Positions 28,735 to 32,031 of a DNA stretch of 32,293 nt are shown piece after piece. The DNA is taken from positions 1-32,293 of the forward strand of contig NZ_JAQUOY010000027.1 in assembly GCF_028716865.1 (NCBI RefSeq), in the 5' to 3' direction. Position 1 is the first letter of the stretch. Each line of letters starts with the position of its first letter. The DNA is from Candidatus Methylomirabilis sp. (GTDB lineage Bacteria > Methylomirabilota > Methylomirabilia > Methylomirabilales > Methylomirabilaceae). A program made the position numbers and the translations under genes. The notes under the pieces are model-generated. The model made no database searches and was not told where the DNA came from. It worked only from the letters and a program-made list of their open reading frames with translations.

Positions 28735-29445
28735 ATGGTCGAGTGGAAGCGACAGCGGATCGAGCGGGCCTATCGGTCCGGCGAAGGGCGCGAGGCGATA
28801 CACGGCGGTCTCAGCGACACGCTCCTGCGCCTCATCCGGGAAGAACCGCTGCGCGAGCGGACGGTGCTGGATGTCGGGTGCGGCAATGGGCGCTTGACCT
28901 TTGCCCTGGCGCAAGAGGTCGGCCGGATCATTGGGATCGACTGGTCGGAGCAGGTAATCCAGGAGGCCCGCCGACGCGCCGGCGCCCTTGGCCTGAACCA
29001 TGTCACGTTTGTGTGCGACGATGCCGAGCGGGTCGAATATGGCAAATTTGGTCCGATCGATCTGGTGGTCGCCCATCTCTGCATGTCTAACGCAATCCTG
29101 GAGCGAGCGGCCGCGGTCCTGGTACCGGGCCGCTTCATGGCCTTTGCGACCCTTCACCGAGATCAATGGAAGGAGAGCGGCAGAAGCTCCCGATTCGCCT
29201 ATGGAGAGGAGGATGTCGATCTGGCGCTGACAGCGGTGGGATTCGACCCCGTCTATCTCGAGGTCGAGCATGAGGTGCTCTCTTTTACCGCCTCCGATGA
29301 CGCCCTGGCTTACGTGGAGGCCTCAGGTCTCACTGAGAAATGGCAGACCGATAGCCGCTGGGAGGGGTTTCTCGCGTATCTGAAGCGCGGCGGGAGAGAA
29401 TTAACGATCCGGGCCCGTGTCAATGTGAAGGCGCGCCGCCGGTGA
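28735..29445 (+). CDS. Class I SAM-dependent methyltransferase
   Basis: A 236-residue protein with a strong AAGGAGG site 4 bases upstream. The Rossmann-type SAM site is visible: motif I VLDVGCGNGRLTFAL (about 44-58), acidic residue D69 in GIDWSEQ, motif II around VCDDAERVEY, and VVAHLCMSN. The substrate is unknown; the N-terminal helix KRQRIERAYRSGEGREAIHGG and C-terminal helices provide no family I can name (UbiE/Methyltransf_11/25-like). It is transcribed away from the arsR-type gene, and its 3' end overlaps the 3' end of queG by 26 bases in the opposite direction. Confidence 0.88.
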   Translation: MVEWKRQRIERAYRSGEGREAIHGGLSDTLLRLIREEPLRERTVLDVGCGNGRLTFALAQEVGRIIGIDWSEQVIQEARRRAGALGLNHVTFVCDDAERVEYGKFGPIDLVVAHLCMSNAILERAAAVLVPGRFMAFATLHRDQWKESGRSSRFAYGEEDVDLALTAVGFDPVYLEVEHEVLSFTASDDALAYVEASGLTEKWQTDSRWEGFLAYLKRGGRELTIRARVNVKARRR

Positions 29446-30598
29446 GCGCCTGCGCAATCTCGACTTTTACGTCGGGATCGGTCTCGCGAGCAAGCGCCTC
29501 GTCGAGCGCCGCACGCGCCTCAGTCGTGCCGGTCCGTCCTAAGGCCCAGGCGGCATGACCCCGGACCAGCGGCTCCGGATCGGAGAGGAGCCGTGCCAGA
29601 GCCGGGATCGATTCCGCGGAGCCCAGGTTACCCAGCGCCACTGCCACGTTTCGCAAAACGCCCCGCCGCTTTGACCGCTTGAGCGGGCTCCCCTTGAACC
29701 ACGACCGAAACTGTTCGTCGTTCAGTGCAAGGAGAGGGATCAACTCCGGCGCATGAAGGCCCTCACGGGGCTGAAAAGCAGGCTCCTTCGAGGCCTCGAT
29801 ATTGACATTATACGGGCAGACCTCCTGGCAGATATCACAGCCAAAGATGTGACTGCCGATCAGTGGCCGTATCTGTGCCGGGATACTGCCCTTCAACTCG
29901 ATCGTCAGGTACGAGATGCAGCGACGGGCATCCAGTCGATACGGGCCGACAAAGGCGTCGGTCGGACAGGCCTTCAGGCATAGATCGCACGAACCGCACC
30001 GGTTCCTGATCGGCTGATCTGCCGGCAGTTCGAGGCTCAGAAACAGCTCGCCCAGAAAAAAATACGAACCGTGCTTTGGAGAGATGAGGAGCGTATTCTT
30101 GCCGATCCACCCGATTCCCGCCAGGCCAGCGAACCCCTTCTCCAACACCGGCCCGGCATCGACGTAGGCCTTGCCCTGAACCTCTTCGCCGACGGTATTG
30201 CGAATCCATCCGAGCAGCGCGTCAAGTCGGCTCTCAAAGACCGTGTGATAGTCCTCTCCCCATGCATAGCGGGAAATCCATCCCTTGGGCGCACCCGCCT
30301 GGTGTGTCTCGCGCGGAAAGGGGGTGTAGTAGTTCATGGCGACAGAAACCACCGAACGCGCCCAGGGAAGCCACGTACTCGGGTGGCGTCGGGCCTGCTC
30401 AGTACGCGTCATATAGGCCATCTCGCCGCCATACCCCTCTTGCAGCCAATCGGCGAACGACTGTTCATGGGGAGGGTCGCTGACCGACGAGATCCCGACC
30501 AGCTCGAACCCCAGCCTGTGGGCCTCTTCTTTGATCGCCTGAGTCAACTGCTCAGGACTCTGCACGACCATGTCGCAATCCTGTTGATTCGTGCCCAT
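29420..30598 (-). CDS. queG: Epoxyqueuosine reductase QueG with C-terminal HEAT repeats
   Basis: A 392-residue cobalamin- and Fe-S-dependent enzyme for the last step of queuosine synthesis in tRNA (epoxyqueuosine to queuosine). The catalytic aspartate is D147 in YVDAGPVLEK, followed by GIGWIGKNT. Two 4Fe-4S clusters are held by C201, C204, C207 and C211 (CGSCDLCLKACP) and by C227, C254, C257 and C261 (CDICQEVCP). HEAT-type repeats follow from about 310 (RGVLRNVAVALGNLG and VRGHAAWALGRTG). It starts 6 bases after the DUF72 gene; ATG 30571 is an alternative start. The 3' end overlaps the convergent methyltransferase gene. Confidence 0.96.
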   Translation of the reverse strand: MGTNQQDCDMVVQSPEQLTQAIKEEAHRLGFELVGISSVSDPPHEQSFADWLQEGYGGEMAYMTRTEQARRHPSTWLPWARSVVSVAMNYYTPFPRETHQAGAPKGWISRYAWGEDYHTVFESRLDALLGWIRNTVGEEVQGKAYVDAGPVLEKGFAGLAGIGWIGKNTLLISPKHGSYFFLGELFLSLELPADQPIRNRCGSCDLCLKACPTDAFVGPYRLDARRCISYLTIELKGSIPAQIRPLIGSHIFGCDICQEVCPYNVNIEASKEPAFQPREGLHAPELIPLLALNDEQFRSWFKGSPLKRSKRRGVLRNVAVALGNLGSAESIPALARLLSDPEPLVRGHAAWALGRTGTTEARAALDEALARETDPDVKVEIAQALTGGAPSH

Positions 30599-30604
30599 TG
30601 ACGC

Positions 30605-31384
30605 TTACCGTACTACCTTGAGGGCTCGCGCTCGTAGCGGTTTCGCCTTCTCCCCCAGCAGCGCCTGGAATCGAATCGCGTCCTCGGCCATCAAGAGATT
30701 ATTGAACAGGCAGTAGGTGGGGAGATCATTCTTGTACACCGTCTTCAGCCGCTCAAGGTCCTGATCGGTGTGAACGTACCGGTAGCCGGTAAGGCCGTGC
30801 AGCCGATAGTAGCGGATCGGGCCATACAGCGACGGCTCCTTGAGCGGATCGACCACGTGGACCAACTCTAACTCGCGACAGAGTCCCTGGATCAGATCCG
30901 CCGTCCAGGCACCGCGTGGCTCCCAGGCAGCTTGCCAGCCGGCGCGGTCGACGCTGGTGAAGAAGGCGCGCAGGTTCGCGATATGTTCGGACGTCGGCGT
31001 GAAGCTCGGCGGGCACTGGAAGACGATGATCGAGGCGCCCAGGGCTGCCGCGAATGCCCGCGTCTGGGCCCAGGCTTCGAAGACTTCCTCGGTGGGCCGA
31101 AACGCGCCGTAGCGATCTTTCGATTCAGGTGAGATCGGCTTGGTGAGGCGGCGATAGGTCGGGCTTGACGGCTCGTGCGTGATGAGCTGCCATGCCTTCA
31201 TCGTAAACTCGAACCCGGTCGGCGCCCCGGCTTGCCACCGTACCCCTGTGCTGAGCCGCGGCAATTTGTAAAAGGTCTGCTGGATCTCAACAACCGGGAA
31301 GGTGTTGTAGTACTCCTGCCGGCCCATCGCGAAGCCGCAGGTCCCGATCTTGGCATGGCCCGCGCTTGGATCAGCAGTGGCTAT
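30605..31384 (-). CDS. DUF72 (YecE-like) family protein, apparent ATA start
   Basis: About 259 residues of the DUF72 family, a TIM-barrel fold of uncertain function. The family start IGTCGFAMGRQEYYNTFPVVEIQQTFYKLP is visible, followed by FEFTMKAWQLITH and FQCPPSF, then YYRLHGLTGY and YCLFNNL. No ATG, GTG or TTG lies in frame near the proper N terminus. An ATA codon (31384-31382) overlaps the TAG stop of the preceding gene, with AAGGAG 7 bases upstream. The first conventional in-frame ATG (31465) would add 27 residues lacking DUF72 similarity and overlap the neighbour by 85 bases. I prefer ATA; an assembly error at this base is an alternative. Co-transcribed with queG. Confidence 0.85.
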   Translation of the reverse strand: MATADPSAGHAKIGTCGFAMGRQEYYNTFPVVEIQQTFYKLPRLSTGVRWQAGAPTGFEFTMKAWQLITHEPSSPTYRRLTKPISPESKDRYGAFRPTEEVFEAWAQTRAFAAALGASIIVFQCPPSFTPTSEHIANLRAFFTSVDRAGWQAAWEPRGAWTADLIQGLCRELELVHVVDPLKEPSLYGPIRYYRLHGLTGYRYVHTDQDLERLKTVYKNDLPTYCLFNNLLMAEDAIRFQALLGEKAKPLRARALKVVR

Positions 31385-32031
31385 CGGATCTCTCCTTCGT
31401 CCATTGGGGCATCTTGGGACGGTGAAGAAGACGGCTGCGGCCGGGGGCTCCTCGAGCCCATCCACGCTCGCGTGGCGCTAAGGGCTGACACGAGGAAGGC
31501 CGAGCCGGAGACCAGGTATTCGGTGGTCAGCCAGTGGACCACCCAGCCCGTTCCAGGGGCCGGGCTGGCCCACAACCACTGCACCGCTTTGAAAAGCAGC
31601 AGGAGAAAGCCTGCCCAAGCGGTAATTGTCACCAGCAGCCAGTGCCACGACTCAGGTGTCCGCCGGTGAGCTTGAAACAGCAGCGCACCCAGCAGCAACG
31701 ATGCGGCGGGGATGAACCACAGGAGCGGCTCCTGCGGTACAGGGTGGCCTTTGAGTGTCTGGCCAAGGGCGAGTTCCAGGCCCGCAACCGAGATCACGCG
31801 ATGGGCCCAATATGGACCGGCGATCACCCAAGGCAGGAAAAAGAGCCCGAAGGGGATCACGCCCGCCCACGGCAACTTCGCCCAGCGCAGGGAAGACACC
31901 GGTGCCGTCGGCGGCGTCGCGAATGTCCCGCCGCACTGCCAACATGCGCTGGCTCCAGGCACTCTACGCGCACCACAGTCCGGGCAGAGGCCAATCGTGT
32001 GAGTACTCATCGATATTCGCGCACCGTGCAT
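31381..32031 (-). CDS. Zinc-ribbon membrane protein of unknown function
   Basis: About 216 residues from ATG 32031 (GGAAGG 11 bases upstream; ATG 32010 is the alternative and gives the cleaner start MSTHTIGLCPDCG). The N terminus has a zinc ribbon with two CxxC pairs (CPDCG and CWQCGG, 13 residues between them). Four hydrophobic helices follow (about 60-80, 85-100, 112-130 and 140-165), then a Ser/Pro-rich charged tail. I do not recognise the family. The TAG stop overlaps the DUF72 start (ATAG), so the two genes and queG form one transcript. Confidence 0.7.
   Translation of the reverse strand: MHGARISMSTHTIGLCPDCGARRVPGASACWQCGGTFATPPTAPVSSLRWAKLPWAGVIPFGLFFLPWVIAGPYWAHRVISVAGLELALGQTLKGHPVPQEPLLWFIPAASLLLGALLFQAHRRTPESWHWLLVTITAWAGFLLLLFKAVQWLWASPAPGTGWVVHWLTTEYLVSGSAFLVSALSATRAWMGSRSPRPQPSSSPSQDAPMDEGEIR

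Follow-up and report, generated by a model that had tools for sequence, protein, structure and literature searches.

Translation of infC in Escherichia coli starts with AUU, and a 64-codon measurement in the same bacterium was reportedly made by Hecht in 2017. In Staphylococcus aureus, infC, ccpN and citZ begin with AUA, and the output from this codon stays below that from AUG, at about 10% of it in poor medium at the tested sites, with ccpN reaching as much as 30% in rich medium; the portion of the study cited here also reports strong Shine-Dalgarno (SD) sequences for infC and ccpN and the mapping of starts by ribosome profiling or their measurement with reporters (PMC13009471). Weaker start codons such as GUG and UUG tend toward compensation by stronger SDs, according to the cited part of PMC5622118. 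Among close neighbour genes, NTGA is the commonest spacing motif in the excerpted sections of a review on translational coupling (PMC12548453), sections that contain no mention of AUA, non-AUG or near-cognate starts. In these −4 overlaps (PMC12548453 and PMC6728339, both cited in part) the first base of the downstream start immediately precedes the upstream stop codon. Titles and abstract openings in the literature gave no sign of an AUA start coupled through ATAG or ATAA, and nothing turned up on start codons in Methylomirabilis.

The window analysed here is a whole stretch of 32,293 nucleotides and represents one entire contig from the genome of a methane-oxidising bacterium, Candidatus Methylomirabilis (G000; 2.54 Mb, 53 contigs, 99.98% complete). 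On its minus strand, a gene for a hydrophobic protein, a DUF72 gene and a queG-like gene follow each other closely (Table 1). A sequence-only reading of this DNA had proposed that DUF72 starts at an ATA placed 7 bases behind AAGGAG and overlapping the upstream stop as ATAG, an arrangement that was borne out exactly on the minus strand. As in NTGA overlaps, the candidate start opens on the base just ahead of the upstream stop, but ATA is combined with TAG instead of NTG with TGA. With the S. aureus genes it would share AUA as start codon and an SD in front of it; in contrast to those mapped starts, the DUF72 ATA was read from the sequence, overlaps an upstream stop and was apparently born from a deletion. 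Initiation at this ATA, coupled to termination of the upstream gene, appears to be the most likely present start of DUF72, and we assign it a probability of about 0.64.

Table 1. Features at and around the DUF72 junction of G000, in positions of the window
Feature	Position	Strand	Remark
ATA, candidate DUF72 start codon	31382..31384	minus	sequence; SD-spaced
TAG, stop of upstream gene	31381..31383	minus	2-base overlap with ATA (ATAG)
−4 overlap, ATAG	31384-31381	minus	ATA begins one base ahead of upstream stop
AAGGAG, Shine-Dalgarno-like	31392..31397	minus	7 bases before ATA, within upstream gene
Spacer from AAGGAG to ATA	31391-31385	minus	7 bases
Deletion-junction zone	31376..31382	minus	alignment with G007, G014, G009
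DUF72 (PF01904) gene read from ATA	30605..31384	minus	259 codons plus stop
GTG, rival start	31463..31465	minus	sole standard in-frame start upstream of ATA
Upstream gene, hydrophobic protein	31381..32010	minus	open frame extends to TTG 32055
queG-like gene (QueG_DUF1730, 4Fe-4S, HEAT repeats)	29420..30598	minus	6 bases after DUF72

Read from the GTG, the frame matches the DUF72 family of Pfam with E=2.4e-29 and 103.4 bits (gathering cut-off 25.3); a search by sequence against solved structures gave no match. The product of the upstream gene, by eye a membrane protein, has no Pfam family over the cut-off, with a weak zinc-ribbon hint at E 0.089, and is present in 12 of the 15 genomes of the genus that were compared (G000 and 14 others). 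In the queG-like protein, the HEAT repeats (PF13646) lie C-terminal to the 4Fe-4S domain.

It had also been claimed that no conventional start lies near the ATA. The frame is open from the GTG at 31465, 27 codons ahead of the ATA, and the first standard start downstream is an ATG at codon 20, past the conserved KIGTCGF, which starts at codon 12 (the Pfam match itself starts at codon 24). This internal ATG reads ATA in G003 and G012 and is therefore no conserved start. The similarity to DUF72 had been placed ten codons downstream of the ATA; it begins earlier, since relatives of the genus align from residue 3, or slightly beyond it, of the ATA-started protein. Codons at most one base away from ATG, counted from the in-frame stop to codon 15, are GTG (−27), AGG (−4), ATA (0), AAG (+11) and ATC (+12), and among them only ATA is SD-spaced. 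The mRNA folding at the ATA showed nothing unusual (z 0.34 and −0.20).

Initiation at the GTG would add a 27-residue extension, encoded by the last part of the upstream gene in another reading frame. GTG is a standard codon and its frame is open, but it has no SD before it and sits in the predicted stem of a hairpin, the folding again being not unusual (z 0.15). Moreover, stops close the extension frame in G001, G004 and G012, three relatives in which DUF72 is coupled through GTGA (see below). Over the 81-base stretch, differences from eight relatives at positions 1/2/3 of the extension codons amount to 80/55/15, the reverse of a coding pattern, in a count in which the relatives do not weigh as independent samples (G007 and G014 being nearly identical) and the majority would presumably not translate the extension; the pattern indicates that the extension is not conserved as a protein. 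We regard a start at this GTG as improbable.

Conservation analysis showed strong DUF72 orthologs with 75–86% identity in 12 of the 14 other genomes, whereas G006 (94% complete) has a weak match only and G011 (80% complete) none. ATA is the DUF72 start in none of these relatives, which have an ATG further downstream or a GTG here. In G007, G014 and G009 the upstream gene adjoins DUF72 and ends with CGATAG, followed by a spacer, TGTACAAT or TGTAACAT, six bases and an in-frame ATG; from the coordinates, 64 bases (G007, G014) or 171 bases (G009) separate the upstream stop from this ATG. G000 matches the three relatives up to the TAG and resumes at DUF72 codon 8 or 9 (codon numbers of the ATG-started relatives), where the end of the upstream gene is fused to DUF72; the second matched block of G007 and G014 was extended by five bases to reach the junction. 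Absent from G000 is a block of 86 or 193 bases that runs from the spacer through the −10 element and the ATG to codon 7. The alignment thus shows a deletion on the G000 lineage that took the ATG of DUF72 together with its −10 element. Trees of DUF72, of QueG and of both combined group G000 with G009, G007 and G014 (support for the four 89, 96 and 96), and since these three all keep the spacer and the in-frame ATG, the loss falls on the branch of G000 itself.

The upstream gene ends with CGATAG in G005, G007, G009, G010 and G014 alike, and in G005, G008 and G010 it lies elsewhere, not adjacent to DUF72, yet ends in ATAG. As read from this comparison, the ATA of G000 is an inherited stop-codon context that was brought against DUF72 by the deletion. 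The suspicion that the codon is an ATG misread as ATA does not fit the junction alignment, in which G007, G009 and G014 have the same ATAG as upstream stop and no ATG at this place. A different error would be a block lost in assembly, in which case spacer and ATG would be present in the organism as in its relatives. The site lies about 900 bases from the contig end, and the junction with ATA is seen in one species, from a single assembly; the join is nevertheless clean and in frame, and five other assemblies have GTGA junctions similar to it, so that we consider an assembly error very unlikely. A search of viral contigs, which are a poor place to look, did not turn up the exact junction.

In five of the 12 relatives with a strong ortholog (G001, G003, G004, G012 and G013), DUF72 is joined directly to the same upstream gene via GTGA. 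The start lies one base before the stop as in ATAG, and the spacer and the −10 element are absent. Gene pair and geometry are thus those of G000, but the start is GTG and the breakpoint is a different one, since these species lack the coding stretch that is kept in G000 and stand elsewhere on the tree. The GTGA junctions reflect one event or several, the tree supports among these species being low. In the other seven (G002, G005, G007, G008, G009, G010 and G014), an extended −10 element, TGTANNAT, ends six bases before an ATG, a spacing that suggests a leaderless transcript. Six of the seven have this ATG in the DUF72 frame; in G008 it is one base out of frame, so that translation must begin at a GTG or ATG deeper in the gene, and G008 may also have lost its old DUF72 start and moved inward. 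At the other end, the proteins of G009 and G005 are cut short at the C-terminus by in-frame stops (TGA and TAA, respectively).

These comparisons suggest the following model. The ancestor would have carried DUF72 behind a gene ending with CGATAG, with its own extended −10 element six bases before the ATG and probably a leaderless mRNA. On the G000 lineage, the deletion took away everything from the spacer to codon 7, −10 element and ATG included, and left a frame that begins at the upstream stop. Ribosomes ending the upstream gene at TAG could then re-start one base back at ATA, aided by AAGGAG, and the product would be about six residues shorter at its N-terminus. From what is known of AUA starts, DUF72 output would be low and sensitive to IF3.

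Constraint on DUF72 was analyzed with a branch codon model, run on 12 genomes of the genus with the combined-tree topology and on the protein from KIGTCGF onward. On the G000 branch omega is 0.31, against 0.14 for the rest of the tree (p=0.053). No other of the 10 terminal branches tested reaches this value, and a model with omega=1 is rejected for the G000 branch (p=0.008); QueG gave 0.20 and 0.17 in the same comparison (p=0.59). At the 137 DUF72 columns that are invariant in the other 12 species, G000 differs at 3, the values for each of the other species being 0 to 5. The DUF72 protein was constrained for most of the G000 branch and shows a slight sign of relaxation. Part of that branch predates the deletion, and the constraint is therefore no proof of present use.

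The main rival to an ATA start is accordingly a DUF72 gene in decay, its promoter and start lost by deletion and its open frame being a young pseudogene or made in traces. The raised omega of G000 would agree with this, and DUF72 seems dispensable in the genus, with the weak match in G006, no match in G011, the C-terminal stops in G009 and G005, and G008 as a second lineage that may have lost the old start. However, the 259-codon frame of G000 is intact, evolution at omega=1 is rejected, few of the invariant sites are changed, and G010 has a similar omega (0.28) together with an in-frame ATG. Decay therefore appears unlikely to us, and initiation at the ATA is the reading we prefer. Of what the sequence-only reading had proposed for this codon, its place as the best candidate stands, with the sole SD, the GTGA geometry in five of 12 relatives, the constraint on the protein and a second ATA gene described below; that ribosomes start there is what we infer from these features.

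Gain of the SD as compensation for a poor start was considered and rejected. AAGGAG is missing at this place in the eight relatives with adjacent genes, but G010, in which the genes are not adjacent, has AAGGGGAG. As this encodes the same protein end, one silent change may account for the AAGGAG of G000, and compensation is not claimed; the SD may be largely inherited from the upstream gene.

Genome-wide, AAGGAG precedes ATG at SD distance at 206 sites in G000 versus 46 in the control and is therefore a real signal in this genome. In contrast, AAGGAGN{5,8}ATA occurs at 66 sites versus 70 for the reversed control, which equals background, and ATA starts as a habit of this genome were rejected on this count. 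AAGGAGN{4,9}ATAG was found 17 times versus 33 in the control, and AAGGAGN{5,8}ATAR, with site counts summed over the 15 genomes, is rarer than its control (275 versus 434). The chance of a site like that of DUF72 is about 2e-4 (1.3e-5 per position, about 12 in-frame positions from the stop to KIGTCGF), a post hoc value for a motif whose parts are inherited.

All 66 AAGGAGN{5,8}ATA sites were scanned mechanically for open frames, and DUF72 and a gene for a DUF3568 lipoprotein stood out. Other candidates were ordinary: a gene of the family that we take to be MOSC (L129) has a conserved GTG upstream in four of four species, L164 has a GTG or ATG two codons upstream in G000, G004 and G011, a response-regulator-like protein by eye (L145) has ATG ATG further in, and in L140 an ATG adjoins the ATA. 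L199 overlaps frames without a Pfam match.

The lipoprotein gene (L154/L171; G000:C3:129622-130035, minus strand; Pfam E=4e-23) shows the same succession of AAGGAG, 7 bases and ATA. It is present in eight of the 15 genomes, and the aligned start codon is ATG in G002, G006 and G009, GTG in G011 and ATA in G000 and G004, while G007 and G014 have an ATG two codons upstream of it. Like the ATA of DUF72, that of the G000 lipoprotein gene overlaps an upstream stop, here the TAA of a gene for a small hydrophobic protein (ATAA instead of ATAG); at the same place, G002 and G006 read ATGA and G011 reads GTGA. One G>A in ATGA retains a stop and turns ATG into ATA, and the ATAA of G000 probably arose in this way, by a point change and not by a deletion. 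The G000 lipoprotein could instead start at a TTG, codon 6 from the ATA. In the G004 gene (L173), no ATG, GTG or TTG is found from the in-frame stop to the lipobox Cys, and the stop of the upstream gene comes 14 bases sooner. The DUF72, QueG and combined trees do not place G000 and G004 as sisters. This second ATA gene somewhat raises our confidence in the ATA of DUF72.

A near-cognate start also appears in infC, where an invariant ATC lies behind an SD in all 15 genomes (loci L103-L117), the SD being GGAGGAGG in G012 and AAGGAGG in the other 14. Three codons ahead of the GGA of this SD stretch (GGC in G002) stands ATG in eight genomes, GTG in two and CTG, ACG, CCG or GCG in five, and no standard start is conserved across all 15. 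Translation of infC thus probably begins at the ATC, which sits behind an SD like the candidate ATA of DUF72 but, unlike the latter, is conserved throughout the genus.

Genomes of this genus show how a start codon and a promoter are lost by deletion, with a stop-codon context stepping in as the most likely start. Gene finders would call the GTG extension of DUF72 or miss its 5′ end. Through the step from ATGA to ATAA, overlapping genes have an easy way to gain AUA. Together, the ATAG and ATAA sites raise the tentative and still doubtful idea that the genus uses AUA as a start where it overlaps an upstream stop behind a good SD and a terminating ribosome is already in place, reached by two routes, deletion of spacer and AUG in DUF72 and G>A within ATGA in the DUF3568 gene. 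If the ATA of DUF72 is used, the locus offers a natural experiment on the extent to which a weak start can be rescued by termination coupling and SD strength. If the idea holds for the genus, such AUA genes would run at low output, adjusted through translation of the upstream gene and through IF3.
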